A DNA stretch of 64,000 nt from Lineus longissimus. Lineage: Eukaryota; Nemertea; Pilidiophora; Heteronemertea; Lineidae. The stretch is from NCBI RefSeq assembly GCF_910592395.1, contig NC_088315.1:20318219-20382218 (forward strand), written 5' to 3'. Below, in pieces: positions 1,966 to 50,246 of the stretch. Made by a program: the position numbers and the translations under genes. The first letter of the stretch is position 1. Every line of letters begins with the position of its first letter. The notes under the pieces were generated by a model, which saw nothing but the letters and a program-made list of their open reading frames with translations, was not told the DNA's origin and searched no databases.

Positions 1966-3084
1966 AGTAATCAACTACCCGAGGGGAACTCGAGACTGCT
2001 AACATTTATCAATGGAAGCTTATTTCAGCCTTAGGTTTCCACCAGGCCGTTCAAAACTCCCAGTTAAAAACCGCGCTCACAGGAAATTGGATAAAAGAAT
2101 AATGAATGGTCTCCACTTATCAACGGTATGTTCCGCTGAAATCAAGGCGGAACCATACCGTTTTTTCTAGTAAGCCCATCAAAGAATGCCTGTAAGCATG
2201 TGAGATACAAACGAAGATGCCGAGATTGCTGAAGTCGACTGGGAGGGAAAAGAAACAATTGATGAGCGACTGCAACAACCTGAGCATTTCTGTGTGTCTT
2301 CTCAGTGTAGAAAAACACTGTTGTTGCTCGAATTTTACTTCGGAGTTCCGTACCGTTTTTCTTCCCGACCTGCCCTCCCAGGCCCAGCTCCTATGGACCT
2401 GGTATACGAAGCGATATAGCATTGGCATTGAGGCGTCAGGTATATACGCCCATCATGTAAATGATATGAAGAGGCTTCGGGACGTGTTTATTAATTTTTT
2501 CATTGTAAAATCCATCATTCCTAAGGTTCTTCATTCGATTGGTTGCTGTTAAAACAGTATCATATATTTGATTCAGACACACTCGACTGTAACGTAGCAT
2601 TGATTTATATGTATTATATAATACCAAACATTGAATGTTTAACAAGCTATTGGTGAGATAGCACTCAGTTCTAATTTTGAATATAGGGGGCTTTTGTTAT
2701 TTGATTAGCCTTGATTCTTTCGAGGTTGAACTTATCTCACTGCTTCTGCGTGAATTAGTTCATCAAGACAGCGTTTTACAAAAGATTTGGCACTGGGCCT
2801 CATCGAGGTTCTTATCTTGCTCTGTGCGACATAAAGATCTCGCGGCGCGTTTGCAGGTCAGCTTGTAATCGCCCGGTGAAGCACTGGTCCAATCAAGTGA
2901 TAAAAGTCGCATGTGCTTGTTGATATAGTGCTATGGTAGATTGGTACTATCTCCTAGCAGGTGTCAAATATTATGTCATTTCAATTCTCTGCATATGAAG
3001 ATGCTTCAACTCTGCATTTTCCGAGAATGGACTGCATTATATTGTTTAAATGTTTTGATTTCCAGCTCCTGAGATCTGTCCAGA
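1966..3084 (+). other. 5' flank of the ankyrin-Mab-21 gene
   Basis: Holds no recognised gene. A pyrimidine-rich stretch ending in AG at 3065, and a second AG at 3083, could be splice acceptors for a non-coding first exon. A TGA at 3070-3072 lies in frame with the large gene, so the coding frame cannot extend further upstream without splicing at 3083. No convincing TATA box is seen. Confidence 0.35.
2123..2166 (+). other. Imperfect 14-bp hairpin followed by a T run
   Basis: ACGGTATG-TTCCGC (2123-2136) pairs with GCGGAACCATACCGT (2147-2161) apart from one bulged base, across a 10-nt loop, and six T residues follow at once. In bacteria this would be a terminator. In animal DNA it could be a Pol III terminator, the end of a small RNA or a chance palindrome. 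No upstream RNA gene is recognised. Confidence 0.35.
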
Positions 3085-6000
3085 ATGCCAGCCACATGGC
3101 CCCAACTTGCTCTGATCGATGCAGCAGCATTCGGTTATTATTGGATAGTCAGATTCCTTCTCTGGACTGGAGTAGACGTGAATTGCAAAGATGATCAAGA
3201 GAACATGTTAACTCCAATCATCATCGCCTCGATTAATGAACACCAAGAGGTGGTGGATCTGTTGATTAAAGCGGGGGCGAATATAGAACAAGTCAACGAT
3301 CAGGGAAGAACTCCGTTAGGGTGTGTTTCGATAGAAGGACACCAAGAGGTGGTGAATCTGTTGATTAAAGCGGGGGCGAATATAGAATGTAAAGCCAATA
3401 ACGGGAATACTCCAATCATCAGCGCCTCGATTAATGGACACCGAGAGGTGGTGGATCTGTTGATTAAAGCGGGGGCGAATATAGAATGTAAAGACAATGA
3501 CGGGTATACTCCAATTATCATCGCCTCGATTAATGGACACCAAGAGGTGGTGGATCTGTTGATTAAAGCGGGGGCGAATATAGAACAAGTCAACGATCAG
3601 GGAAGAACTCCGTTAGGGTGTGTTTCGATAGAAGGACACCAAGAGGTGGTGAATCTGTTGATTAAAGCGGGGGCGAATATAGAATGTAAAGCCAATAACG
3701 GGAATACTCCAATCATCAGCGCCTCGATTAAAGGACACCAAGAGGTGGTGGATCTGTTGATTAAAGCGGGGGCGAATATAGAATGTAAAGCCAATAACGG
3801 GAATACTCCAATCATCAGCGCCTCGATTAAAGGACACCGAGAGGTGGTGGATCTGTTGATTAAAGCGGGGGCGAATATAGAATGTAAAGCCAATAACGGG
3901 AATACTCCAATTATCATCGCCTCGATTAAAGGACACCAAGAGGTAGTGGATCTGTTGATTAAAGCGGGGGCGAATATAGAATGTAAAGACAATGACGGGG
4001 ATACTCCAATTATCATCGCCTCGATTGAAGGACACCAAGAGGTGGTGGATCTGTTGATTAAAGCGGGGGCGAATATAGAACAAGTCAACGATCAGGGAAG
4101 AACTCCGTTAGGGTGTGTTTCGATAGAAGGACACCAAGAGGTGGTGAATCTGTTGATTAAAGCGGGGGCGAATATAGAATGTAAAGCCAATAACGGGAAT
4201 ACTCCAATCATCAGCGCCTCGATTAATGGACACCGAGAGGTGGTGGATCTGTTGATTAAAGCGGGGGCGAATATAGAATGTAAAGACAATGACGGGTATA
4301 CTCCAATTATCATCGCCTCGATTAATGGACACCAAGAGGTGGTGGATCTGTTGATTAAAGCGGGGGCGAATATAGAACAAGTCAACGATCAGGGAAGAAC
4401 TCCGTTAGGGTGTGTTTCGATAGAAGGACAGCAAGAGGTGGTGGATCTGTTGATTAAAGCGGGGGCGAATATAGAATGTAAAGCCAATAACGGGTATACT
4501 CCAATCATCAGCGCCTCGATTAATGGACACCGAGAGGTGGTGGATCTGTTGATTAAAGCGGGGGCGAATATAGAATGTAAAGCCAATAACGGGAATACTC
4601 CAATTATCATCGCCTCGATTAAAGGACACCAAGAGGTAGTGGATCTGTTGATTAAAGCGGGGGCGAATATAGAATGTAAAGACAATGACGGGGATACTCC
4701 AATTATCATCGCCTCGATTGAAGGACACCAAGAGGTGGTGGATCTGTTGATTAAAGCGGGGGCGAATATAGAATGTAAAGCCAATAACGGGAACACTCCA
4801 ATCATCTTCGCCTCGAATAATGGACACCAAGAGGTGGTGGATCTGTTGATTAAAGCGGGGGCGAATATAGAATGTAAAGACAATGGCGGGAATACTCCAA
4901 TCTTCTTCGCCTCGATTAAAGGACACCAAGAGGTGGTGGATCTGTTGATTAAAGCGGGGGCGGATATAGAACAAGTCAACGATCAGGGAAGAACTCCGTT
5001 AGGGTGTGTTTCGATAGAAGGACACCAAGAGGTGGTGGATCTGTTGATTAAAGCGGGGGCGAATATAGAATGTAAAGACAATGGCGGGAATACTCCAATC
5101 ATCATCGCCTCGATTAATGGACACCAAGAGGTGGTGGATCTATTGATTAAAGCGGGGGCGAATATAGAATGTAAAGACAATGACGGGTATACTCCAATCA
5201 TCATCGCCTCGATTAAAGGACACCAAGAGGTGGTGGATCTGTTGATTAAAGCGGGGGCGAATATAGAATGTAAAAACAATAACGGAAATACTCCAATCAT
5301 CAGCGCCTCGATTAAAGGACACCAAGAGGTGGTGGATCTGTTGATTAAAGCGGGGGCGAATATAGAATGTAAAGACAATATCGGGAATACTCCAATTATC
5401 ATCGCCTCGATTAAAGGACACCAAGAGGTAGTGGATCTGTTGATTAAAGCGGGGGCGAATATAGAACAAGTCAACGATCAGGGAAGAACTCCGTTAGGGT
5501 GTGTTTCGATAGAAGGACACCGAGAGGTGGTGGATCTGTTGATTAAAGCGGGGGCGAATATAGAAAGTAAAAACAATAACGGAAATACTCCAATCATCAG
5601 CGCCTCGTATAAAGGACACCAAGAGGTGGTGGATCTGTTGATTAAAGCGGGGGCGAATATAGAATGTAAAGACAATAGCGGGAATACTCCAATCATCATC
5701 GCCTCGATTAAAGGACACCAAGAGGTGGTGAATCTATTGATTAAAGCGGGGGCGAATATAGAACAAGTCAAAGATCAGGAAAGAACTCCGTTAGGGTGTG
5801 TTTCGATAGAAGGACACCGAGAGGTGGTGGATCTGTTGATTAAAGCGGGGGCGAATATAGAATGTAAAGACAATAACGGGTATACTCCAATCATCATCGC
5901 CTCGATTAATGGACACCAAGAGGTGGTGGATCTGTTGATTAAAGCGGGGGCGAATATAGAATGTAAAGCCAATAACGGGAATACTCCAATCATCATCGCC

Positions 6001-9000
6001 TCGATTAAAGGACACCAAGAGGTGGTGGATCTGTTGATTAAAGCGGGGGCGAATATAGAATGTAAAGACAATAGCGGGAATACTCCAATCATCATCGCCT
6101 CGATTGAAGGACACCTAGAGGTGGTGGATCTGTTGATTAAAGCGGGGGCGAATATAGAATGTAAAGACAATAACGGGTATACTCCAATCATCATCGCCTC
6201 GATTAAAGGACAACAAGAGGTGGTAGATCTGTTGATTAAAGCGGGGGCGAATATAGAATGTAAAGACAATAGCGGGAATACTCCAATCATCATCGCCTCG
6301 ACTAATGGACATCAAGAGGTGGTGGATCTGTTGATTAAAGCGGGGGCGAATATAGAATGTAAAGACAATAGCGGGAATACTCCAATCATCATCGCCTCGA
6401 CTAATGGACATCAAGAGGTGGTGAATCTGTTGATTAAAGCGGGGGCGAATATAGAATGTAAAGACAATAACGGGTATACTCCAATCATCATCGCCTCGAT
6501 TAAAGGACAACAAGAGGTGGTAGATCTGTTGATTAAAGCGGGGGCGAATATAGAATGTAAAGACAATAGCGGGAATACTCCAATCATCATCGCCTCTAGT
6601 ATTGGACACCAAGAGGTGGTGGATCTGTTGATTAAAGCGGGGGCGAATATAGAATGTAAAAACAATGCCGGGAATACTCCAATCATCATCGCCTCGATTA
6701 AAGGACACCAAGAGGTGGTGAATCTATTGATTAAAGCGGGGGCGAATATAGAATGTAAAGACAATGGCAGGAATACTCCAATCATCATCGCCTCGACTAA
6801 TGGACACCAAGAGGTGGTGGATCTGTTGATTAAAGCGGGGGCGAATATAGAATGTAAAATCAATAACGGGTATACTCCAATCATCATCGCCTCGATTAAA
6901 GGACACCAAGAGGTGGTGAATCTATTGATTAAAGCGGGGGCGAATATAGAATGTAAAGACAATGGCAGGAATACTCCAATCATCATCGCCTCGAATAATG
7001 GACACCAAGAGGTGGTGAATCTGTTGATTAAAGCGGGGGCGAATATAGAATGTAAAGACAATGACGGGAATACTCCAATCATCTTCGCCTCGATTGAAGG
7101 ACACCAAGAGGTGGTGAATCTGTTGATTAAAGCGGGGGCGAATATAGAACAAGTCAACGATCAGGGAAGAACTCCGTTAGGGTGTGTTTCGATAGAAGGA
7201 CACCAAGAGGTGGTGGATCTGTTGATTAAAGCGGGGGCGAATATAGAATGTAAAGCCAATAACGGGAATACTCCAATCATCATCGCCTCGATTAAAGGAC
7301 ACCAAGAGGTGGTGGATCTGTTGATTAAAGCGGGGGCGAATATAGAATGTAAAGACAATGGCGGGAATACTCCAATCATCTTCGCCTTGATTAAAGGACA
7401 CCAAGAGGTGGTGGATCTGTTGATTAAAGCGGGGGCGAATATAGAATGTAAAGACAATAAGGGGAATACTCCAATCATCATCGCCTCGACTAATGGACAC
7501 CAAGAGGTGGTGGATCTGTTGATTAAAGCGGGGGCGAATATAGAATGTAAAGACAATATCGGGAATACTCCAATTATCATCGCCTCGACTGAAGGACATA
7601 AGGATGTGGTGGATCTTTTAATTAAAGGGGGTGCTATCATTGAACACAGTAACCATCAAAACGACACTGCAATAGTTTGCGCAGCTAAATCGAGTAATGT
7701 TGAAATTGTAGACCTTTTGTTGGAAAAAGGTGCTTGTTCCAAAAGTGCTAGTTATGGATCGATATTAAATATCGGTGCGACATTTGGAAGACGACGGATC
7801 GTTGAATATCTTCTGAGACGCGAGATGTCCTCAGAAAGCCGTGACTCGAAAGGAAATACCCCATTGCAAAATGCAATCGTAAACGGTCATCTCTCAGTGG
7901 TCCAACTCCTAATAAATAGTGGAGCAAATACATCCATATTGAACTTTACTTCAGAGAATATTATGTATTCTGCTGCTTCGTGTGGCCATGCCGATATCGT
8001 GAAATACTTGGGAAGCAGAGATACACGGAAGTTATTGGATTTGCACAATGCCAGTGGGTGGTCTCCTATTGCCAAGGCAGTTTCAGGTGGTCATTTTCGG
8101 ACAGTTAGACAACTTCATCAGCTTGGAGCTGACATCAACTGCAGTGTAGATGGAAAAGGACTACTTCAACTAGCAGCTGAGTCCGGTTGCCTAGATATCT
8201 ATCAATATCTCATCATCGCTGGGCTTGACTGCAAACGACCCAACATCCATGGGCTGAGGGCTTACGAATGCTTCCCCTTTCAATCAAAAGTTGATTATCA
8301 AGCATGCAATCGATTAGGACATTCCTCCGAACAAGGTCTCTCTTACGTCATGTCGGGATTAAATGGCCAGGATGCTACACTCCAGTATAAACACAAACTA
8401 TCAGAACTATCAGGTATACCGGGACTAGGCAGAGTGAATATTATCGAGGGTGGTGTTTCAGAAACTGTCATGAAGTTTGTAAAAGAGGAGGAGGTTGTTA
8501 AGGGTTTAGAGTTATGCGGAAGTTCGGCTGAGGGCACGAAGGTTCAGCTGCCTGACGAAATGGATTTCCTTAGATTACCATTTTCCGATCATCTCTCTCG
8601 AAACGAAGTGGTTGACACCTTACATGGGTATAAGTATATACAAGCTAGAAACTTTAAGAACAGGTTTTTATCAAGTAAAGCAATCCATGAGATTGTAAGC
8701 GAAAGCGTAGAATCCAGAGCAAAAGCCAAAGAGTCTAAAAAAAGAGGAGAAATCCTTTCGCAGGCAGTTGCTGGAGGAGGCGGTGCCAGTGTTCCTGTGA
8801 CTATCAGATGGCCCGATAATAAACCTTCAAAACGCATTGTCTCAGAGCATATAATAACAACCTTACCTGTAGATGATTGGCTCGATGATTGGCAAGATGA
8901 TTGGTCCGATGATGCACTACAGAAAAAAGAATCTGAAAGTGAGGTAACGGCGGACGTTTGTATTTATCAACGGACTGGAGACATCTTTTCTCAAGCTGAT

Positions 9001-10407
9001 GCTAGAAGAGGATGGGCCAGTGTTCCTGTGACTATCAGATGGCCCGATGATAAACCTTCAAAACGCATTGTCTCGGAGCATATAGTAACAAACTTACCTG
9101 TAGATGATTGGCCCGATGATTGGCAAGATGGTTGGACCGATGATGCACTACAGAAAAAAGAATCTGAAAGTGAGGTAAAAACGGTGGACGTTTGTGTTTA
9201 TCAACGGAATGGAGAGATCTTTTCTCAAGCTGATGCTAGAAGAGGATGGGCCAGTGTTCCTGTGACTATCAGAAGGTTTGAAAATGTATCATCCAGTCTC
9301 CTTATCTCTGTGGATATAGTACCGATATTTCATGTTGATGATTGGCCAGACGATGCTATCAAGAAGACATGGAAGATGGACGAGGACACCTTGAGGAAGA
9401 GTGACGAAATGGACTTCCTTAGATTAACATCTTCCGCTCATCTCTCTCGAAACGAAATGGTTGACACCTCACATGGGTATAAGTATTTACAAACTGAAAC
9501 AATTAAGAAGAGGTTTTTATCAAGTAAAGCAATCCATGAGGATGAAAGCAAAATCGTAGAATCCAGAGCAAAAGCCAAAGAGTCTAAAAAAAGTGGAGAA
9601 ATCCTTCCGCAAACAGTTGCTGGAGGAGGCAGTGCCAGTATTCCTGTGACTATCAGATGGCCCGATGATAAACCTTCAAAAATAAAATTTGGAAATATAT
9701 CATCCAGTCTCCTTGTCTCTGTGGACATAGTACCGATATTTCATGTTGATGATTGGCCAGACGATGCTATCAAGAAGACCTGGCGAATGGACGAGGACAC
9801 CTTGAAGAAGAGTGGGTATAGGCTGGTCCTGAAATCGCCACACAAGGACAGTGAGTACGGACGGTTGCTACCTGAAGAAGACAGAGAAAGAATGTACCGG
9901 ATCTCCTTCTCTCATCTAGAACCTGCTACAATCAAACCTTTGGCTCCAAGAATCAAAGACGCATACATCACAGCAAAGTGTCTGAGGTCGCCTATGGCAT
10001 GTGGCGTTGTGATTAAAGACAAGGACGGTGTCATACATTTCGTCAGTCACTTCCTAACAAGCTACCTCCTGAAGACAGTCTTCCTCCACAACATAAACGA
10101 CTTCCTTGAGACGAACAGGAGCCTGCCAGAGATGGTCTACATAATCTACAGCCAACTTGAGGATTACCTCGGCAAGGGCAACCTACCGTTCTACTGGCAG
10201 CCCAGCGTCAACCTGCTGGAAGGCTTGAAACTCAACATAGCCAAGTCTCATCAAGTCGCCAAGCTGATGACGGCAACCGTTGGTAGGATGTCCCGCCTGG
10301 AGAGTGGTGGAGAGAACCATGGTGATGACGCGAGGGAAGATGGGCCAGGGATGGAAGCTACTGATGACGAGCCTGACATAGGTTGTTACATCGTCAGATT
10401 AGAATAG
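3085..10407 (+). CDS. Giant ankyrin-repeat / Mab-21 (cGAS-like receptor) fusion protein
   Basis: An intact 2,440-residue frame with no stop. Residues ~9-42 form a degenerate first ankyrin repeat, 43-1527 are 45 repeats of exactly 33 residues, and ~1528-1725 are about six diverged repeats. The C-terminal third matches the Mab-21/cGAS-like nucleotidyltransferase family. G1812-S1813 begins the Gly-Ser motif, followed by 'EGTKVQLPDEMDFL' with candidate metal ligands E1825 and D1827. The third acidic ligand is D2077 or D2214, each in an 'SVDIVP' strand. The end (2244-2400) has Mab-21 C-lobe signatures: 'YRISFSHLE', 'FLTSYLLKTVFLH', 'PFYWQPSVNLLEGL'. No cGAS-type His/Cys zinc thumb is visible. Family knowledge: active members make cyclic or linear oligonucleotides on sensing nucleic acid; others are inactive. 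The function here is inferred: a cytosolic innate sensor whose ankyrin array may bind ligand or partner. The start is the first ATG after an in-frame TGA, with A at -3. An ATTAAA at 10773 could be the poly(A) signal. There may be an upstream non-coding exon. Confidence 0.9.
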   Translation: MPATWPQLALIDAAAFGYYWIVRFLLWTGVDVNCKDDQENMLTPIIIASINEHQEVVDLLIKAGANIEQVNDQGRTPLGCVSIEGHQEVVNLLIKAGANIECKANNGNTPIISASINGHREVVDLLIKAGANIECKDNDGYTPIIIASINGHQEVVDLLIKAGANIEQVNDQGRTPLGCVSIEGHQEVVNLLIKAGANIECKANNGNTPIISASIKGHQEVVDLLIKAGANIECKANNGNTPIISASIKGHREVVDLLIKAGANIECKANNGNTPIIIASIKGHQEVVDLLIKAGANIECKDNDGDTPIIIASIEGHQEVVDLLIKAGANIEQVNDQGRTPLGCVSIEGHQEVVNLLIKAGANIECKANNGNTPIISASINGHREVVDLLIKAGANIECKDNDGYTPIIIASINGHQEVVDLLIKAGANIEQVNDQGRTPLGCVSIEGQQEVVDLLIKAGANIECKANNGYTPIISASINGHREVVDLLIKAGANIECKANNGNTPIIIASIKGHQEVVDLLIKAGANIECKDNDGDTPIIIASIEGHQEVVDLLIKAGANIECKANNGNTPIIFASNNGHQEVVDLLIKAGANIECKDNGGNTPIFFASIKGHQEVVDLLIKAGADIEQVNDQGRTPLGCVSIEGHQEVVDLLIKAGANIECKDNGGNTPIIIASINGHQEVVDLLIKAGANIECKDNDGYTPIIIASIKGHQEVVDLLIKAGANIECKNNNGNTPIISASIKGHQEVVDLLIKAGANIECKDNIGNTPIIIASIKGHQEVVDLLIKAGANIEQVNDQGRTPLGCVSIEGHREVVDLLIKAGANIESKNNNGNTPIISASYKGHQEVVDLLIKAGANIECKDNSGNTPIIIASIKGHQEVVNLLIKAGANIEQVKDQERTPLGCVSIEGHREVVDLLIKAGANIECKDNNGYTPIIIASINGHQEVVDLLIKAGANIECKANNGNTPIIIASIKGHQEVVDLLIKAGANIECKDNSGNTPIIIASIEGHLEVVDLLIKAGANIECKDNNGYTPIIIASIKGQQEVVDLLIKAGANIECKDNSGNTPIIIASTNGHQEVVDLLIKAGANIECKDNSGNTPIIIASTNGHQEVVNLLIKAGANIECKDNNGYTPIIIASIKGQQEVVDLLIKAGANIECKDNSGNTPIIIASSIGHQEVVDLLIKAGANIECKNNAGNTPIIIASIKGHQEVVNLLIKAGANIECKDNGRNTPIIIASTNGHQEVVDLLIKAGANIECKINNGYTPIIIASIKGHQEVVNLLIKAGANIECKDNGRNTPIIIASNNGHQEVVNLLIKAGANIECKDNDGNTPIIFASIEGHQEVVNLLIKAGANIEQVNDQGRTPLGCVSIEGHQEVVDLLIKAGANIECKANNGNTPIIIASIKGHQEVVDLLIKAGANIECKDNGGNTPIIFALIKGHQEVVDLLIKAGANIECKDNKGNTPIIIASTNGHQEVVDLLIKAGANIECKDNIGNTPIIIASTEGHKDVVDLLIKGGAIIEHSNHQNDTAIVCAAKSSNVEIVDLLLEKGACSKSASYGSILNIGATFGRRRIVEYLLRREMSSESRDSKGNTPLQNAIVNGHLSVVQLLINSGANTSILNFTSENIMYSAASCGHADIVKYLGSRDTRKLLDLHNASGWSPIAKAVSGGHFRTVRQLHQLGADINCSVDGKGLLQLAAESGCLDIYQYLIIAGLDCKRPNIHGLRAYECFPFQSKVDYQACNRLGHSSEQGLSYVMSGLNGQDATLQYKHKLSELSGIPGLGRVNIIEGGVSETVMKFVKEEEVVKGLELCGSSAEGTKVQLPDEMDFLRLPFSDHLSRNEVVDTLHGYKYIQARNFKNRFLSSKAIHEIVSESVESRAKAKESKKRGEILSQAVAGGGGASVPVTIRWPDNKPSKRIVSEHIITTLPVDDWLDDWQDDWSDDALQKKESESEVTADVCIYQRTGDIFSQADARRGWASVPVTIRWPDDKPSKRIVSEHIVTNLPVDDWPDDWQDGWTDDALQKKESESEVKTVDVCVYQRNGEIFSQADARRGWASVPVTIRRFENVSSSLLISVDIVPIFHVDDWPDDAIKKTWKMDEDTLRKSDEMDFLRLTSSAHLSRNEMVDTSHGYKYLQTETIKKRFLSSKAIHEDESKIVESRAKAKESKKSGEILPQTVAGGGSASIPVTIRWPDDKPSKIKFGNISSSLLVSVDIVPIFHVDDWPDDAIKKTWRMDEDTLKKSGYRLVLKSPHKDSEYGRLLPEEDRERMYRISFSHLEPATIKPLAPRIKDAYITAKCLRSPMACGVVIKDKDGVIHFVSHFLTSYLLKTVFLHNINDFLETNRSLPEMVYIIYSQLEDYLGKGNLPFYWQPSVNLLEGLKLNIAKSHQVAKLMTATVGRMSRLESGGENHGDDAREDGPGMEATDDEPDIGCYIVRLE
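3211..7665 (+). repeat. 45 x 99-bp ankyrin-repeat minisatellite, in register
   Basis: Unit n starts at 3211+99(n-1). The first 44 units contain no indel and the 45th is diverged. Consensus parts are TPIIIASIKGHQEVVDLL, then IKAGANIECKDNNGN. Residues T1, P2, E13-V15, L17-L18 and I25-E26 are essentially invariant, while positions 5, 8, 9, 29, 31 and 33 vary. Eight units start 'TPLGCVSIEG' (units 2, 5, 10, 13, 19, 24, 27, 41), and each follows a unit ending 'IEQVNDQGR' or a close variant. Thirty-five units carry Cys at position 27. Units 2-4 and 10-12 are effectively identical, so a block of eight units (792 bp) was duplicated. The array is likely to vary in length between alleles and is at risk of assembly collapse. 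Confidence 0.95.
8554..9820 (+). repeat. Internal duplications within the nucleotidyltransferase region
   Basis: The 'DEMDFLRL' block at 8554 is repeated at 9403, an offset of 849 bp. Both copies lead through 'FLSSKAIHE' and 'ESRAKAKESKK' to a '(S)VPVTIR' strand. That strand itself occurs four times, with its Ala-Ser codons at 8785, 9016, 9250 and 9634. Copies 1, 2 and 3 are spaced 231 and 234 bp apart, so they are in-frame tandem duplications. The downstream strand reads 'SEHI' in copies 1 and 2 but 'SVDI' in copies 3 and 4. The copies have diverged by substitution, so this is unlikely to be a recent assembly artefact. Confidence 0.85.
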
Positions 10408-12135
10408 CGAGCAAGGTAACTCTCTGGGTCAATCATAATGAAGATAATTAGCTTCAAACATAATAATTCACTCATCTTCTCGTACATTGTATGCTGCGAG
10501 TTGTCGTATATTATAGCAGGAAAGAGATTATCCTGATGATGGATCCTCTAGAATTCATTACAAGTTATAATCTAATATTTTGTTGACCTTGAATTTAATG
10601 TCATGCTTGAACTTTATCATAGTCTCGTTATGAGAGTTCCATTGCGTTAGTTACGCTAACTACAGCAAGTACGTATACATGTGAAGACCATATATGTACA
10701 ATACTTGATTGCAGCACGGCGTAGAAAGAATTCTTTTACTGGTCTGTTATTACAGTGAACAACCCCCAATTAATTAAAAAAAATGTATACCCATTGTTTC
10801 GATAAGAATGTTTGTGGCGTACAATCCACCTAGTAATAGAATGTTTCCACGGCCAGTCATTTTGGAGGGAGGAAGAATGATTTGACTTGCCTGACTTAGC
10901 TGAATCAAATACTGTCACATGGTCCTTGGGCTTGCTTTCTGTTGTCTGTCCCTCCAGCATGCAAGAAATATACAACCTGCCTGCATTGAGTAATCGCTTT
11001 CAAAAGTACAATGTGCCTGATATCAATACATTGATTTCCAGTACTTCCATATTCATCCCGAAGAACACCTGGTATGCAAGACGGATGCCCCGGTGTAACC
11101 ACATCTATGGTTATTTCCCGGCCTCACCCAGCCCGGCCAGTTTAAACCACGACAGTGCATGTGTACGAGTTGGGCCGACGCGACAGGCGCAGCGGTCGGA
11201 AGCGGTCTCTGGCGGGATATCTTGGACTTTGGTTCGACCACGAAAGCCTCAAGTTCGTCAGGACCTTCAAAGCCTAGTGGTAGGGAGTTCGTTCTTGAGA
11301 TGACACGGGGATGAAAATAGCAGCTATATTGACTTCAAGAGAGAGAATGGTGAGGGGTCGTGTAGTGTACAAAGGAAAATAAGCATTGTAAAATTTTAGA
11401 AAACTTCTGATATTTTTCAGGCCCCCCGCGATCCTCTCACACTTCCCCGATATTCAGATATGCAATTGCAGAATTGCAGATTTTCCCAGTTTGGGAACAC
11501 ACATCGGTGATGATGTCCAAAAGTTCACCACTTCTGAAAAAAAGACATTTTTGATTTTGGTAAGAATGGATCCTTCCCCTAATTTAAGATGATTTCTGAA
11601 ATTTTACAGTCCATTTTGTGCACCTACAATTCCTAGGAAGAACGAGATTTGGGAGTTTCTCGTTTGTTTTTTGGGTCGTGGTAGGGTGAGAGGAAGTTGA
11701 TACAAATCAAATGTTGATAATTTCCTGCAGACTTATCATGTCACGTAGTGTTTAAAATACTGGCAACAACTTTGATATTCAATCGATTTTGATATCTTTA
11801 ATTCAGTCAACATTTGCATTGACACTTTTCCTTTGACCCGATCTCGATCCCAGATTGCCGACAAGGCAGCCCCATTCTGTAAAATATTTAGGAGAGCGTG
11901 GATAAGTTCTGGACGCCACGCACGCTTTACAATTAATTGTGATGGAGGACTTTTGATTCCTGTCCTACCAGTAGGCAGAAGACATTTTGACATTTTGAAA
12001 TTTTAAGAGACATTTTGACATTTTACATGTAAGTGATATTTTGACATACTTTAGACTCACCGTTCTAAGACTGGCCAGTTTATTAATTTGAGGCAGGATA
12101 TGGGTATCCAATCAAAGAAAAAATTATTCTATTCG
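10408..12135. other. 3' flank of the ankyrin-Mab-21 gene; no further gene seen
   Basis: Probable 3' UTR followed by intergenic sequence. There is no AATAAA within about 1.5 kb of the stop; ATTAAA at 10773-10778 is the nearest plausible signal. Short open frames at 10887-11303 have no family resemblance. Around 11985-12055 'GACATTTTGACATTTT' words recur as simple sequence. Confidence 0.4.
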
Positions 12136-13036: not shown

Positions 13037-13076
13037 ACAAAATAGGAAGTTGGATGTTGCAATCAATCACTTTCAT

Positions 13077-13812
13077 TATATGTGTGGGTTATACCCTTTA
13101 ATAAATGTTCACTACCTGAGTGAACACTGGTGTTATATTATATGTGTGGGTTATACCTTTTAATAATGTTCACTACCTGAGTGAACACTGCTGTTATATT
13201 ATATATGTGGGTTATACCCTTTAATAATGTTCACTACCTGAGTGAACACTGGTGTTATATTATATGTGTGGGTTATACCCTTTAATAATGTTAACTACCT
13301 GAGTGAACACTGGTGTTATATTATATGTGTGGGTTATACCCTTTAATAATGTTCACTACCTGAGTGAACACTGGTGTTATATTATATGTGTGGGTTATAC
13401 CCTTTAATGATGTTCACTACCTGAGTGAACACTGGTGTTATATTATATGTGTGGGTTATACCCTTTAATAATGTTCACTACCTGAGTGAACACTGGTGTT
13501 ATATTATATGTGTGGGTTATACCCTTTAATGATGTTCACTACCTGAGTGAACACTGGTGTTATATTATATGTGTGGGTTATACCCTTTAATGATGTTCAC
13601 TACCTGAGTGAACACTGGTGTTATATTATATGTGTGGGTTATACCCTTAAATAATGTTCACTACCTGAGTGAACACTGGTGTTATATTATATGTGTGGGT
13701 CATACCCTTTGATAATGTTCACTGCCTGAGTGAACACTGGTGTTATATTATATGTGTGGGTTATACCCTTTGATGATGTTCACTACCTGAGTGAACACTG
13801 GTGTTATATTGA
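13077..13812. repeat. 61-bp satellite, 12 units, each with a perfect hairpin
   Basis: TGTGTGGGTTATACCCTTTA recurs at 13081, 13143, 13204, 13265, 13326, 13387, 13448, 13509, 13570, 13631, 13692 and 13753 with at most small changes, giving a period of 61 bp (62 once). Most units contain GTTCACT-ACCTG-AGTGAAC, a 7-bp perfect inverted repeat around a 5-nt loop. Non-coding. The high identity indicates recent expansion or homogenisation. Confidence 0.95.
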
Positions 13813-41600: not shown

Positions 41601-42777
41601 TCCAATAATCGGAAAATCAAGCGGAAGGATCTCATAACCGGCAAGAAGTCATGTGATTAATGACAAAACGATGCGCTCGGCCAAAAAAAGTTGTCAGGAA
41701 AAATCTGAGAAACATTGACAACCGCATTTTTGGAAATCGATGTCGTAATTTAGCCGATGATGAAAGTTTCCTTGTCACTGGTACGACAAAAACTAACTGC
41801 AGACCCGAATTGGTAAAAATTGTGACAGGAAGTAGCCGTTGAAAATGCACTGATTGAACATTTACTGATATTATGATAACGATAATAAATGACACATTTA
41901 TTGAGCGCACTTTTCAACCTCCTGGCAGTAAGTCGTTCAATTACGCTTTGACATATCGGCCTGCATATTCCTGGTTTAAGCTCAACTCCGGGCGGGGAGT
42001 ATCACATGTCCGAGCTGTACTGTTTCTGCATTCAGGTGGAGCATTCTCATTCGCCATCTCTGACAGCCTGGTACCCGTGTATTCTGGAGTAAAGTGAGGC
42101 AAGTAGGGTTAAGTCCCTCGACAAAGGACATAAGACGAAATGTCTTCCTTCGTCAACAGAGAATATTAGTTGTCTATGATCAATCGTCATAGAAATGATT
42201 TTGAGGAAATCAAGACCTACGACAATTGGTGCTGTTTCCGTTGAAAATAATCAAAAAGGGAAAACAATAATGCTTTCAGCCTAATGAATGCCCTCCATTC
42301 ACTGATGAATGCCTTCCATTCACTGGATAATTCCGTCTATGATTTGGTTGGGCTTTCTGGTTTTTGATGGTATCACTTGCGAGATGAAAGGCTAATAGAC
42401 TTCCCTTGGGTGATCAAGACAAGGATGAGTGTAATGAGTGTGAATAGGTTGATGTATCGTCCGAGTCGTTTCAAAACCCTAATTTCATCAGTTTACATGC
42501 TGTTGATTGATGAGCCGGATTGTGCTATGATAACATTATTTGTGAGATGGAATGCTGATGTTCAAGCTATGGGTGGTGAGGGGATGACTACTGCTGGCCT
42601 CTTGCGGTAAAAAAAAGAGTTAAAGCGGCACCCCAAGGGTACCGCTAGATTTAGTAGCAGTCACTAAAAGATAGCGGTTGCTAAGCTATTCAAGTTCGAG
42701 CAACCGGGTCCTGGTCTGCGCCTGGTTGGATGAACATCCTTTGGTGGTTGAAGTCCATTGTAGACGAAACGTGAAGC
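38681..42777. other. No supported gene
   Basis: About 4 kb of mostly unique sequence. The open frames are below 100 codons and show no motif. At 42284-42325 a ~20-bp unit with GAATGCC-TCCATTCACTG is present twice. An imperfect TACC-rich block lies at 41480-41600. I see no RNA gene. Confidence 0.35.
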
Positions 42778-44475
42778 GAATTCAGTCAGCGTATGGAAGG
42801 ATTCAGTCAGCGTAGAGAAGGTTTCAGTCAGCGTAGAGAAGGATTCAGTCAGCGCAGAGAAGGTTTCAGTCAGCGTAGAGAAGGATTCAGTCAGCGGAGA
42901 GAAGGATTCAGTCAGCGTAGAGAAGGATTCAGTTAGCGTAGAGAAGGATTCAGTCAGCGTAGAGAAGGATTCAGTCAGCGTAGAGAAGGTTTCAGTCAGC
43001 GTAGAGAAGGATTCAGTCAGCGTAGAGACGGATACAGTCAGCGCAGAGAAGGATTCAGTCAGCGTAGAGACGGATACAGTCAGCGTAGAGAAGGTTTCAG
43101 TCAGCGTAGAGAAGGATTCAGTCAGCGTAGAGACGGATACAGTCAGCGTAGAGAAGGTTTCAGTCAGCGTAGAGAAGAATTCAGTCAGCGTAGAGAAGGA
43201 TTCAGTCAGCGTAGAGAAGGATTCAGTCAGCGTAGAGAAGGATTCAGTCAGCGTAGAGAAGGATTCAGTCAGCGTAGAGAAGGATTCAGTCAGCGTAGAG
43301 ACGGATACAGTCAGCGTAGAGAAGGTTTCAGTCAGCGTAGAGAAGGATTCAGTCAGCGTAGAGAAGGTTTCAGTCAGCGTAGAGAAGGATTCAGTCAGCG
43401 TAGAGAAGGATTCAGTCAGCGTTGAGAAGGATTTAGTCAGCGTAGAGAAGGATTCAGTCAGCGTAGAGAAGGATTCAGTCAGCGTAGAGAAGGATTCAGT
43501 CAGCGTAGAGAAGGATTCAGTCAGCGTAGAGAAGGTTTCAGTCAGCGTAGAGAAGGATTCAGTCAGCGTAGAGAAGGATTCAGTCAGCGTAGAGAAGGAT
43601 TCAGTCAGCGTAGAGAAGGATTCAGTCAGCGTAGAGAAGGATTCAGTCAGCGTAGAGAAGGATTCAGTCAGCGTAGAGAAGGATTCAGTCAGCGTAGAGA
43701 AGGATTCAGTCAGCGTAGAGAAGGATTCAGTCAGCGTAGAGAAGGAGTCAGTCAGCGTAGAGAAGGTTTCAGTCAGCGTAGAGAAGGATTCAGTCAGCGT
43801 AGAGAAGGATTCAGTCAACGTAGAGAAGGTTTCAGTCAGCGTAGAGAGGGTTTCAGTCAGCGTAGAGAAGGTTTCAGTCAGCGGAGAAAAGGATTCAGTC
43901 ACTGGAGAGAAGGATTCAGTCAGCGTAGAGAAGGTTTCAGTCAGCGTAGAGAAGGATTCAGTCAGCGTAGAGACGGATACAGTCAGCGTAGAGAAGGTTT
44001 CAGTCAGCGTAGAGAAGGATTCAGTCAGCGTAGAGAAGGTTTCAGTCAGCGTAGAGAAGGATTCAGTCAGCGTAGAGAAGGATTCAGTAAGCGTAGAGAA
44101 GGATTCAGTCAGCGTAGAGAGGGTTTCAGTCAGCGTACAGAAGGATTCAGTCAGCGTAGAGAAGGATTCAGTCAGCGTAGAGAGGGTTTCAGTCAGCGTA
44201 CAGAAGGATTCAGTCAGCGTAGAGAAGGATTCGGTCAGCGTACAGAAGGATTCGGTCAGCGTAGAGAAGGATTCGGTCAGCGTAGAGAAGGATTCAGTCA
44301 GCGTAGAGAAGGTTTCAGTCAGCGGAGAGAAGGATTCAGTCAGCGTAGAGAAGGATTCAGTCAGCGTAGAGAAGGATTCAGTCAGCGTAGAGGAGGATTC
44401 AGTCAGCGTAGAGAAGGTTTCAGTCAGCGGAGAGAAGGATTCAGTCAGCGTAGAGAAGGATTCAGTCAGCGTACA
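42778..44475. repeat. 21-bp minisatellite, ~81 units, no net indel
   Basis: The unit is GGATTCAGTCAGCGTAGAGA plus A. TTCAGTCAGC occurs at 42781 and at 44461, exactly 80 periods apart, so reading frame is kept across the array. Units differ by recurrent substitutions (GGTTTC, GACGGATAC, TACAGAAGG, GGATTCGG). On the minus strand each unit reads as the heptad S-F-S-T-L-T-E and stays open from 44475 to a stop at 42664, ending in a ~40-residue unique tail. There is no ATG in that frame; the only near-cognate start is a GTG at 43902. The plus frame (GFSQRRE) is broken by stops near 42933 and 43420. I annotate a minisatellite and treat the coding reading as unproven. Confidence 0.9.
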
Positions 44476-46892
44476 ATTTTACTTTCATACAACCAGTGAT
44501 GCGCTTTATTGCGTTCCAGTTTCGGTTATGTAATAACACGGAGCACAGGCAGATCCACAACCGAGTCCATCAGTTCATCAGGTGATTGCTCTCACCTGTC
44601 TGATCCATGAAGTTCATCCATGAGAACTTCTATGGTACCTCTGATGAAATAAAGATTCAGAAAAGCATTACGGATGATAAAATATTCAGAGCCGTTTTGA
44701 TGGAACGTGATAGTGTTACTGATTGAAATTAACTGTTAAACTGTCAGTAGGGAAATTATAAGCAGGTTTTGACGATTCGTGGCTATTTTGTGTTTTTCTA
44801 CCACGGAATGAAAAAAGCTTTATGGATTCCCGATAAACCCCACATCATTTTACAACAGCCTGGCAGTTCAGAGATTACTGGTTATCAATTGAGTGAAATT
44901 ATGCGTTTTTAGAATTTCGTATGACATTTTCTCTGTAAAGTTTAGTCAATTGAGGAACATGTCTCCAAGTTAAGGAAATGGTGAATTTAGCTGTTATTCG
45001 AGCAATACTGGTGGTAACGAGAGAGGAATGTGTAATTCGTGGTATAGAGTAAGCAAAATGCCATTATTGTAACTAAGTGGTTGTTGGCAGCATGAGCAAA
45101 TTCGTTATTTGGTGGAAGGAATTGCATTTCAAATGTCAAGGCAGTTTGTTACATGAACTTAAAAGTAGATATTACTTAAAAACGAGTACGAAATTGTGGT
45201 GATGGCCACATATTAAACACGCCAAGTACATTCAGCCTGATGAATTGGCATAAAAGCGTGCTTAACCACTCGACAATTTCCATTCAATCTACCCAGTCAC
45301 TTGATGATAGTGATATCTACCATACCCAGGATACTCGTATTGCCTTTCGCATGTGACATGCAAGATTCGGAGACTTTCCAAACTAATCAAACTAGCTATC
45401 ATACTTGATTGGTTCCAGACAGTTTCGGTTATAATATGTCTGTCAATTACCCAATAGCTCATCTACTTAGACGAGGGTCATATCCTTTACAGGCATCGTT
45501 GCGGGTATCTCCTTTCGCCAAGTTCGACTTGGTCATTCACCTTGATTTTAGGCGAGGATGGCAATTCCATGCAAGCAGTGTTGAACGCGTTGGCGATTCG
45601 AACACATAATTATTTTCTTGTACCGTGAGGGAAATCGTCTATGCGTAACTTATCGCTCTTGTCGCATTCGCAGTTTATCCGCGTAATGGAGGGCTGATCG
45701 ACAGGTAAAAACTTAATCAGCAGTCAAGCCTTCTATGTCCTTGAACAACTACAAAATTAGTCAACGCGATTAGTTATGTTGTCTCCATTGGTTAAGCCCA
45801 TTCTGTTTAACTAAGTAATGTCAGATATCCATGGATATCTGGTAAGGTTAATGTCAAGTTTTTGACGAACTTCTTTTGGGAAACCGGGCCAAGGTTATGA
45901 AACAGCTTCTATCTACCTCTGCGCTTTGAGCTGCACGATGCCTCGTCAATGCATGATCTACAAGCATGGCAGCATGTGTCAGCTTTACCATCAAGGAACG
46001 AGTCCTGAAATCTAATGCCAAAATCGAATTTCAAACCAATCTGAATCTGCCTGGGGTTACGCACGTGGGTGTCGAAATGTATTAAACCAGCAATGTGTGG
46101 CAGTGCTGATTAAACCTTGATTTGTCAACTCATATCTATGGTAAAAGAGCGCATATTGGAGTTTGCCAAATGACTTCAATGCTGCGATGGTGCATGTGGC
46201 TGATTTCTGCTGTTATGAATCATTACAACAACAATATATGTACTTCCTTTGAAAATGTTCGTAACTGACGTCGAAACCTGACGTGGACTTTGAAAAAAGG
46301 TCATGACATTTATGGTTAAAACTTACTACCAAAGTCTAATATGATTAGATTAATTCCTATGACAAATTAGCTGCACACCTTCCTATTTTTTCTGTATCAC
46401 AAATTGGTGTTAGCTGATACCCCTAGTTTCGCGATTGTAACCCTGAAAATGGATACACGAATAGAGTGTACCTGATTAGCGTGATTTGTGTAATGCGATG
46501 CATCCACAGACTGATTGTACTTGTGTGGCTGCACCTATAAAAATATGACATTTGCCAAACACGGGGTTCATTTTCCGCTATGCGTCTGATATCAGTGTAA
46601 TCAACCCAAAGGGTGAAAGAACGGTAGAGTTGTGCTTCAGGCGAAACAGGCATCTTTCTCGGAGTCGCAGTTTTTGTGTCTTTTCATAATCGTCGATTCT
46701 ATTCGCCTATAATTAGGCTCTGATGAATAGCTTAGGCCAACCCAATAAAAAGGAGTCACTCCATGTCATTGAGAACGGTCTGGTCATTCATTCCACCAGT
46801 GTATTTGGGGCAAACATCGTGCTGCCTTTATAACTGACGACTCTCATTTAATCATTTCATTGTTTAGGCATTACACTACTGGGGCAAGCAAT
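44476..46892. other. No supported gene
   Basis: AT-rich sequence without recognisable coding frames, RNA genes or repeats beyond simple words. The flank shows no second copy of the 21-bp unit. Confidence 0.4.
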
Positions 46893-47448
46893 AACTTATG
46901 GCAGCTACCCGCCTCAAGCAGGGAGATGTTATACAATTGTTTCGATGCAAGACATCTTCCCGCCTCTAGTAAAAGGGTGAAGGTCCCGTCATCGCAGATT
47001 TAGCGGAGATTATCGAATAACTGTACCGGAGTGTGTCAACGAAGGAATCTTGGCGCTTGACATACACGATATGGTAGACTTATGGCAGCTACCCGCCTCA
47101 AGCAGGGAGATGTTATACAATTGTTTCGATGAATGACATCTTCCCGCCTCTAGTAAAAGGGTGAAGGTCCCGTCATCGCAGATTTAGCGGAGATTATCGA
47201 ATAACTGTACCGGAGTGTGTCAACGAAGGAATCTTGGCGCTTGACATATACACGATATGGTAGACTTATGGCAGCTACCCGCCTCAAGCAGGGAGATGTT
47301 ATACAATTGTTTCGATGCAAGACATCTTCCCGCCTCTAGTAAAAGGGTGAAGGTCCCGTCATCGCAGATTTAGCGGAGATTATCGAATAACTGTACCGGA
47401 GTGTGTCAACGAAGGAATCTTGGCGCTTGACATACACGATATGGTAGA
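46893..47448. repeat. 185-bp unit in three near-identical tandem copies
   Basis: Copies run 46893-47077, 47078-47263 and 47264-47448. They differ at only a few sites: GATGAATGAC versus GATGCAAGAC, and one inserted TA. Each unit carries an imperfect inverted repeat (AAGCAGGGAGATGT against ACATCTTCCCGCCTC) about 20 nt apart. No coding frame spans the array. Confidence 0.95.
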
Positions 47449-50246
47449 CTACTACGTGTCTTTCTTGGTGGATAGTGAACATGGTGAACATATGCACTTG
47501 CTTGTTGTGATTTAGAGGTATTGTAACAGGGTATGAGTATCGAAGAAGCACGTACGGAGGTTTTAATTATCGTACTATACTGCGAAATGAACTGGCCTTG
47601 TTTGATCGTAAGAAAGGAAACGCATGGTACAGCATATCCAAGCATACATTCGTTCTTTGACGCACTCAAACACATTCATTCGTTAATCTCCACTGAAACC
47701 TGCGTTGACACAAGAACTCAAATCGTTTTACTTGATGCGGATAGCTTTGTAATGCCTCAGCGGTGAAACAATTGAATATCCGGCTTTTGATATCTTAGCG
47801 ATATTTCCAAAATTGATTTAAGACCTCCGAAAGCATTTTGATATCAAAGACTCATCTGATCAAACATCAAGACAATCTGGCAAACATTAATCTGCTTTGC
47901 TTTCATCATTGGTAAACTCGGTTTATAACCTGGACGCATAATCTTGCTGGAGATGACAAAATGTTGTCAAGCCTTGAGCTAGACGTCTGGCTTGCTCTTG
48001 TGGATTATGTGCGTGGTGCGTTGATAACGATTTCATATAAAACTGTTCCAGGAGGCTGAATGCGATCATATTCTGAAATGGGACAACCAACTTGCTTGCA
48101 CGGATGCTGGAACAGGAGCTGTTTGCCTTTACCGGGTCTGCTTCCGGCGAATCTCGTAGCCACCAAGAGACAACTAACCCGACAAAGTGTACTGTTGCAC
48201 ACTCAGCATCAAGGCGTATGATCTCTAGTCTACCGTACAATATTGTGCACTTTAAGCTTGTCGAGGTCGTCAAGGGTATATTGCTCAGCCAGCAAGTTAT
48301 ATAGTGTTAGATTGTCCATTATCCGAACCAAAACACTGACATGGTATGGTAGTAACACCCAGCGACAACGCTTGTGCTGATTTATTTCCGAAATCTTCGG
48401 AGGCTTTCAGCGTCCTTCAAGCATCGTCAAGCATTTATTGCTGAATCGGCAGTCCCCCATTACCTTTATTGAACATGATGAAGTGATGTACTCAAGAGCT
48501 CATAAAGTGCAATTAGAAGATAAGAAAGTGCTTCGGTTTACTTAAGGATCTCGGAGAGTGCTGGTTTTGTAAAGTTTCGTCTGGAGTGACGACGGCACCT
48601 ACGGTTACGGGGGGGGGGGGGGGGGGAGTAGTGTGAAAACCACCCTCATCATTCCTCACATCGGAAAAGAAGCTCAAAGATATAACGCGACGCCCCAAGA
48701 ACTGCCTATTTTGCATGCGCCGAAAACCACTTTAATGAGAGCATTACACAAAGAGTATGGAAATCCCTGTCCATTGGGCTTCTGTCTCAATCAATCTGAT
48801 CATTGCCAACCCAACGATACGTCGAGTGCTGCAATATGACGCTCAAAAGCAAGGACGGAGGGCCATAGCATTAGCCTACTACTTCAAATTAACACAATTG
48901 CTGTTTCGTATGGTCAGTCGGTTTGTAATCCTTACACGGTGTTCATCGATCTTTGCGACCAGTCCACTTCAGGTTGTGGTACATTTAAGACCACCACTTC
49001 ATTACGTACCGTGCTGGGCAGACACGGTGGATATCATAAGCGGCTTAAGGCACTGACCATGGTCATTAGGCACAAGAGAGCATCATCACCGCGCAGCCGT
49101 GAGGGTATAGACGCGTTTGATGATGTGACAATCTATGAATAATCTTCCACCTTCCCAATAGAAGAACTCCGCTATGCGAATCGGCCGAGTTTTTCACATG
49201 AAGATTCTTCTCGTTTTACCTGAGGTGACTGCCCCACACCTTAAGCCGTTATCGAGTAATTGAGTATGACACTTTTCCTCGGGCGCACTTCAGCCACACC
49301 GGTTACAAAACTTTGATCATTCCACGGAAAAAATGCTCAGGATATTATCGTGTCTTTACCGAAAATGAGCACATAAGAAAACGAATTCCTCCCTAGGGAT
49401 AGATTGTGTAAATATTGTGGTTGATGTGCATGGCCAATAATGATGCAATCAGTATCTTTTTGCCACGGGGACCTCGTCAGGAATGGCTGGAGATAGTTAC
49501 TGAAGTTTTGCTGTCGACGCCATAAGGACAGCCATCATCCATGTTTACAAACATGGGTCGATATGACGTTGAAAGGTTATTCATGCAGTGATACTTGCTA
49601 AATAAAGCGAGCATACCTACGGATCATGGCTGCAATCATGTGCCATAACAATAAACAACTTGGAATTTAGTCCGAGCCTCAACTCGAACCCGCCCTATGT
49701 CACTCCATTTTAAAGCACTCGTGCATTCTTACGAACAGTTTAAAAAAATACATTGCCAAAAATTATTTGATCAATCTTGAATTTATTTCGTAGAAAACAT
49801 TGATGCAATCCAATGATACTGGTCACGAAGCACGCATTTGACCGTTCCCGAGCAATAAAATCCAGTGGGGAAAAGACTCTCCGTCGTTGTGTCTCATGCT
49901 TTGGCTTACTGTGATGCAGCACGATGTTGACATTTCCAAGGCGTGACAGTCCTTCGCACGGCAGCAAAAAACCCATGATTGGATTTGAAAAAAAATCGAG
50001 TTAGGAGAAACGGAAAGACATTTGTATTCGTCGTTTGGAACAACCGGATGAAGAATCGGTTGTAGGCGGTCCGGGATTGCGTCGGAGGGAAGTTATTGCC
50101 AATCAATTTTTTTGGATTAGAGCAAATTTTGCCAGTGTGGGTTCTTTGTTTCATGTTCAGAAATCATCCGTTAAAATGTCGGTCAAATCTAAGCTGATTT
50201 CTGCTGATATTACTACACAGTCTCAAATCAGAGACTTTCTTTATTA
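47449..50246. other. No supported gene; G18 tract inside
   Basis: An ATG-initiated 77-codon frame at 47533-47766 (+) begins inside the flank of the tandem repeat and has no recognisable motif. A G18 run lies at 48609-48626. Several 60-100-codon frames overlap on both strands, which argues against any being real. Confidence 0.35.
48609..48626. repeat. G18 homopolymer
   Basis: Eighteen consecutive G between AAC-free flanks (CGGTTAC before, AGTAGTG after). Simple sequence. Confidence 0.9.

Follow-up and report, generated by a model that had tools for sequence, protein, structure and literature searches.

A single open reading frame (ORF) in a 64,000-nucleotide stretch of the genome of the nemertean Lineus longissimus (NC_088315.1, positions 20,318,219 to 20,382,218; hereafter the window) encodes an ankyrin array and, C-terminal to it, a cGAS-like (Mab-21) nucleotidyltransferase (NTase) with Gly-Ser, Glu-x-Asp and third-Asp motifs, and belongs to a family of such fusions. 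We propose that its product, the window protein, is an ankyrin-repeat cGAS-like receptor (cGLR), and we put the probability of this whole explanation, mechanism included, at roughly 0.55. A sequence-only reading had earlier interpreted the frame as a very large invertebrate pattern receptor; its cGAS-like fold, motif residues and fusion stand, but proteins of this kind were already known, ankyrin-fused cGLRs having been described in 2023 by Li et al. (PMC9980059). The new part is a catalytic domain enlarged by inner tandem duplication, and this interrupted enzyme looks like an unusual variant.

One frame joins an ankyrin array to a cGAS-like nucleotidyltransferase

The frame runs uninterrupted from an ATG for 2,440 codons, as first described. 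Since the second-longest of five ORFs of at least 200 amino acids reaches only 412, a chance frame is excluded.

3085–10407, plus strand: open frame, ankyrin array then cGAS-like (Mab-21) NTase (ORF list, Pfam)
3106–3210, plus strand: N-terminal degenerate ankyrin unit, residues about 8–42 (by eye)
3211–7665, plus strand: 45 near-identical 33-residue ankyrin units, residues 43–1527 (repeat analysis)
7666–8265, plus strand: about six degenerate ankyrin units, residues 1528 to about 1727 (by eye; similar region in the relatives P0003–P0005)
8386–8811, plus strand: first NTase segment, residues 1768–1909, with N-terminal helix, Gly-Ser motif, Glu-x-Asp strand and spine helix (AlphaFold model, cGAS alignment; edges picked by us from the model)
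8518–8523, plus strand: Gly-Ser activation-loop motif, G1812 and S1813 (sequence, alignment)
8554–8565, plus strand: first D-E-M-D motif, residues 1824–1827, with catalytic candidates E1825 and D1827 (sequence)
9700–10296, plus strand: second NTase segment and C-lobe, residues 2206–2404, with the third-Asp strand SVDIVP (D2214) and Mab-21_C (Pfam, alignment, AlphaFold model)

Pfam recovered both parts of the protein, as the sequence-only reading had expected. The Mab-21 NTase (PF03281, 34.4 bits) and Mab-21_C (PF20266, 31.0 bits) exceeded the cut-off of 24.1, giving homology over the NTase core and the C-terminal helix bundle, and PF00023 (ankyrin) matched 47 stretches at an E-value limit of 1. 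The 45 units in register are spaced at exactly 33 residues, the tandem period that defines ankyrin repeats; adding the degenerate units counted by eye, one at the N-terminal end and six at the C-terminal end, makes about 52 in all, the number originally proposed. An AlphaFold model closes the cGAS fold and was aligned to cGAS, and model and Foldseek alike indicate predicted structural homology to cGLRs and cGAS. GSSAEG was found at residue 1812 and the first DEMDF at 1824, where they had been placed, and the Gly-Ser (1812–1813) is followed after 11 residues by E-M-D-F, in agreement with the cGLR pattern of Gly-Ser, 8–20 residues, then [DE]h[DE]h (Li et al., 2023; PMC9980059). A PDB profile search was run with an NTase-only alignment of five relatives, another alignment (A2) giving mostly ankyrin; the search from the single sequence was weak (cGLR1 0.019).

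Three protein searches returned 16 different relatives (eight from L. longissimus, seven from JGI metagenomes and one from Mytilus coruscus). The searches admitted only proteins of 0.55–1.75 times the query length and needed shared words, one of them scoring the best 7,990 candidates, so this set may lack cGLRs that are short and stand alone, as well as distant relatives. In 16/16 relatives, one predicted protein combines ankyrin with the NTase. Because all of these predicted proteins (not transcripts) carry both parts, we rejected a chance joining of two neighbouring genes, and the physical fusion claimed at the outset is supported. Among 17 rows scanned at 0.001, Mab-21_C was found in 14 and Mab-21 in 12. 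A tree of the NTase core places the window protein with P0003, P0004 and P0005 (ultrafast bootstrap 89, SH-aLRT 100; branch not starred), L. longissimus proteins named uncharacterized or ‘ankyrin repeat domain-containing protein 50-like’. These have the same domain order, a near-identical ankyrin unit, 84–86% identity to the window protein across the C-terminal region and the same insert junction in the alignment, but their deposited models contain fewer ankyrin units (P0003 starts inside the array).

The zinc thumb of cGAS has the pattern H-X5-CC-X6-C. This pattern was absent from 17/17 sequences (the window protein and its 16 relatives), and the window protein differs from human cGAS both in lacking the thumb and in carrying an ankyrin array ahead of the NTase. 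With animal cGLRs (PMC9980059) it shares the cGAS fold, Gly-Ser, Glu-x-Asp, third Asp and, for some of them, an ankyrin fusion; it differs in its out-of-range catalytic spacing, its inner duplications and its roughly 52 ankyrin units. The main text of that survey has no mention of nemertea or Lineus, excerpts of PMC6321704 and PMC9334734 name no ankyrin–Mab-21 fusion, and a literature search with most subscription journals outside its reach returned no article combining Lineus longissimus, genome and ankyrin, or nemertea, STING and cGAS.

The 45 units are 59–100% identical at the DNA level (mean 86%; 8 of 990 pairs identical) and are not independent, because they were copied from one another. 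Purifying selection on the array as a whole received no support (overall ratio of nonsynonymous to synonymous differences per site, pN/pS, 0.88). At six of the 33 positions, which we take to be ligand contacts, pN was 0.274 and pS 0.135 (ratio 2.03), compared with a ratio of 0.64 at the remaining 27; mean pN at these six exceeded that of random position sets (p = 0.0115), ranked top of 33 circular shifts, and stayed in excess without the eight TPLGC units (p = 0.0031). The corresponding protein-level test, which covered 6 of the 17 sequences (P0008 and P0010 with too few units), gave p = 0.0022 for the window protein (44/45 units caught), p = 0.0037 for P0004 (14 units), p = 0.0092 for P0005 (13 units) and p = 0.0037 for P0002 (5 units). 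As far as sequence can tell, this variation is consistent with a variable binding face and is no proof of positive selection. It lends modest support to the sensor or scaffold role suggested for the array by the sequence-only reading, a role that we still only infer.

The NTase core has an isoelectric point (pI) of 8.86 and a charge of +5.7 (8.72 and +4.7 with alternative edges); the pI is 5.11 for the ankyrin units and 5.35 for the whole protein, and core pI ran from 5.23 to 8.95 across the 16 relatives. Nucleic-acid-sensing cGLRs are reported to have a pI >8.5 (PMC9980059), a value that the core alone would fit and the whole protein would not.

An insert and duplications inside the catalytic domain

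The catalytic domain had at first been taken as ordinary, which proved mistaken: a repeated insert of about 295 residues divides it, and the published active-site spacing does not hold.

8746–9273, plus strand: 231-bp tandem repeat, 2.3 copies, 91% matches (repeat analysis)
8818–9699, plus strand: insert within the NTase, residues 1912–2205, acidic, with a predicted local distance difference test (pLDDT) score <50 in the model (AlphaFold model, charge computation)
9307–9324, plus strand: first SVDIVP strand, residues 2075–2080, an extra copy of the third-Asp strand (sequence, repeat analysis)
9403–9417, plus strand: second DEMDF, residues 2107–2111, an extra copy without a preceding Gly-Ser motif (sequence, repeat analysis)

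SVDIVP is present twice (residues 2075 and 2212), in keeping with the SVDIVP strands of the sequence-only reading, which had missed the second DEMDF (residue 2107) and the tandem duplications. The NTase region also contains tandem duplications larger than 231 bp, and its three longest inner repeats are 91–93% alike. Inside the 231-bp repeat, copies of the third-Asp strand (likened to the SVD strand by eye) read SEH, not SVD. The multi-cGLR fusions that Li et al. likened to OAS2/OAS3 (PMC9980059) also have more than one copy of NTase elements per chain, whereas the copies in the window protein are partial and nested within one domain. P0003–P0005 each have one DEMDF and one SVDIVP instead of two, and a Glu-x-Asp to third-Asp spacing of 169 residues instead of 384.

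The insert has a pI of 5.08 and a charge of −11.7, and the entire sequence from one motif to the other carries −6.4. That acidic inserts generally act as a restraint is disfavoured, because the motif-to-motif sequence is near neutral in P0003–P0005 (−1.9, 0.2 and −0.9).

By eye, the insert repeat ESESEV..DVC[IV]YQR (8929–8973 and 9160–9207) resembles the C-terminal tails of P0012 (EVTVYQR) and P0011 (VVIIYQR), and the insert looks as if it contained a copied C-terminal tail. The L. longissimus protein P0002 has a different insert, likewise built of repeats, between the same NTase motifs (residues about 787–1118; period about 43 residues).

Proposed mechanism and competing explanations

Judging from sequence and model, the protein most likely works as cGLRs do, with the ankyrin array as a module for recognition or scaffolding. 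The ankyrin solenoid would bind a protein ligand or partner via its variable face, and binding would cluster or free the C-terminal NTase, which is predicted to fold from residues about 1768–1909 and 2206–2404 with the insert looped out. The enzyme could then link nucleotides to make a second messenger for STING or a receptor like it. The insert, which may have grown through tandem duplication of the NTase’s own pieces, may tune or restrain the enzyme. A bolder version strikes us as a long shot: a germline receptor evolving fast through duplication of its own parts, in which dozens of interchangeable ankyrin units diversify at ligand contacts and the acidic, repeat-grown insert is a built-in nucleic-acid mimic restraining the cGAS-type enzyme until the array binds a pathogen protein, making it a cGLR that senses proteins and not nucleic acids.

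A number of observations weigh against the proposed ankyrin-repeat cGLR. The strict cGLR pattern has h[QT] immediately before Gly-Ser, although the Methods wording is looser, G[S/G] (PMC9980059); the window protein reads L-C-G-S, with Cys instead of Gln or Thr, and fits the looser form, and the whole strict pattern was matched by 0/17 sequences. The published spacing from the Glu-x-Asp motif to the third-Asp motif is 50–90 residues (PMC9980059), and here it is 384 to the C-terminal SVDIVP (387 Asp to Asp), 247 to the inner SVDIVP, or 101 from the second DEMDF. At the SVDxVP strand 1/17 sequences falls within 50–90 (P0010, 86) and 16/17 fall outside, 11 of these only slightly (93–114). A looser pattern accepting any acidic residue does not discriminate, since 17/17 sequences match it. 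The E and D of Glu-x-Asp are invariant in 17/17 aligned rows, an invariance that is partly selection because the rows were found via words shared with the query. Mean pLDDT of the model is 56, and Foldseek TM-scores are low (target-normalised 0.32–0.41 among the 50 matches listed). The Pfam NTase match lies on residues 2128–2280, the second copy rather than the segment used by the model, and a model started at the second Glu-x-Asp likewise adopts the cGAS arrangement, so either copy could serve as the active one. Differences between the two Glu-x-Asp copies are not biased towards synonymous sites (pN/pS 1.99, Fisher p = 0.22), which would fit relaxed constraint. In the array, the presumed contact positions follow DARPin (designed ankyrin repeat protein) numbering; non-contact positions 4, 5, 27, 28 and 29 are equally variable (pN 0.32–0.35), and contact position 21 is nearly invariant (pN 0.022). 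Because two published points fail (the residue before Gly-Ser and the spacing) and the others tested hold, we class the protein as a cGLR-like enzyme and as a variant of the ankyrin-fused cGLRs of Li et al. (PMC9980059). Its activity cannot be assumed, as the domain is split by the insert and the published active-site spacing fails.

It is possible, if rather doubtful, that the insert and duplications broke catalysis and left a large ankyrin protein that ends in an NTase-like part and serves as scaffold or decoy, as the spacing of 384 against 50–90, the partial duplication of active-site strands and the unbiased Glu-x-Asp copies would suggest. Some Mab-21 proteins are catalytically silent. Yet Gly-Ser, Glu-x-Asp and third Asp are all retained, differences between the two SVDIVP strand copies are, relative to opportunity, mostly synonymous (pN/pS 0.36, based on few differences, 4.5 and 6.5), the model still closes the cGAS fold, and three L. 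longissimus relatives with a spacing of 169 have the same residues. We consider it improbable that the inner duplications were assembled from joined paralogues or haplotypes and that the true gene is the shorter L. longissimus form: assemblies can mishandle repeat-rich regions, and this one is repeat-rich with closely similar inner repeats, but all copies keep one frame across 2,440 codons, and have diverged from one another, and four L. longissimus proteins (P0002–P0005) also have an insert at this place between the motifs. Removal or variation of the insert by splicing, with a canonical enzyme made from some transcripts, is very unlikely, for although donor-like and acceptor-like sites occur inside the repeated segments, 0/5 pairs >60 bases apart keep the frame among the two donor-like and four acceptor-like sites of 8501–9830 (simple consensus, a weak test), and the L. 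longissimus protein models retain their insert.

If the ankyrin-repeat cGLR is active, its split catalytic domain would show the insertion tolerance of the cGAS fold and its array would test whether cGLRs can sense proteins. With 16/17 sequences outside the 50–90 spacing, one branch of ankyrin-fused enzymes may be under-counted by the published survey, whose authors also curated by hand (PMC9980059).

Gene ends and surroundings

3064–3065, plus strand: candidate 3′ splice acceptor TTTGATTTCCAG of a putative 5′ untranslated region (UTR) intron (sequence read)
10773–10778, plus strand: candidate polyadenylation signal ATTAAA, 366 bases beyond the stop (sequence scan)

The coding part looks, from sequence, like one exon after a 5′ UTR intron, because the candidate acceptor (9/15 pyrimidines upstream) ends at 3065 and a TGA in frame with the ORF follows at 3070–3072, before the ATG. 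An upstream in-frame coding exon is unsupported, as this TGA stands 3′ of the candidate acceptor.

Further gene copies in the window were sought by tblastn with the C-terminus of the window protein and 4 of the 16 relatives (P0002, P0004, P0006 and P0010), and none of the 45 matches fell outside 2900–10500. Rfam (at gathering scores) and ARAGORN each returned 0 matches on the window. We scanned 20 of the 149 stop-to-stop ORFs of at least 75 amino acids as neighbours, and Pfam matches, of coiled-coil kinds, appeared in one, the ORF of a 21-bp satellite; the gene context is uninformative. On the minus strand, 692–1453 holds an ORF that spans 253 codons between stops, has no Pfam match and may be an exon. 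The 21-bp tandem array (42664–44533; ~81 copies, 93% matches) has a stop-to-stop frame on each strand (589 and 604 codons), its Pfam matches are coiled-coil-type, and it is probably a minisatellite. Two further tandem arrays were found, one of 61 bp at 13075–13810 (12 copies, 96% matches) and one of 184 bp at 46894–47450 (3 copies, 97% matches).
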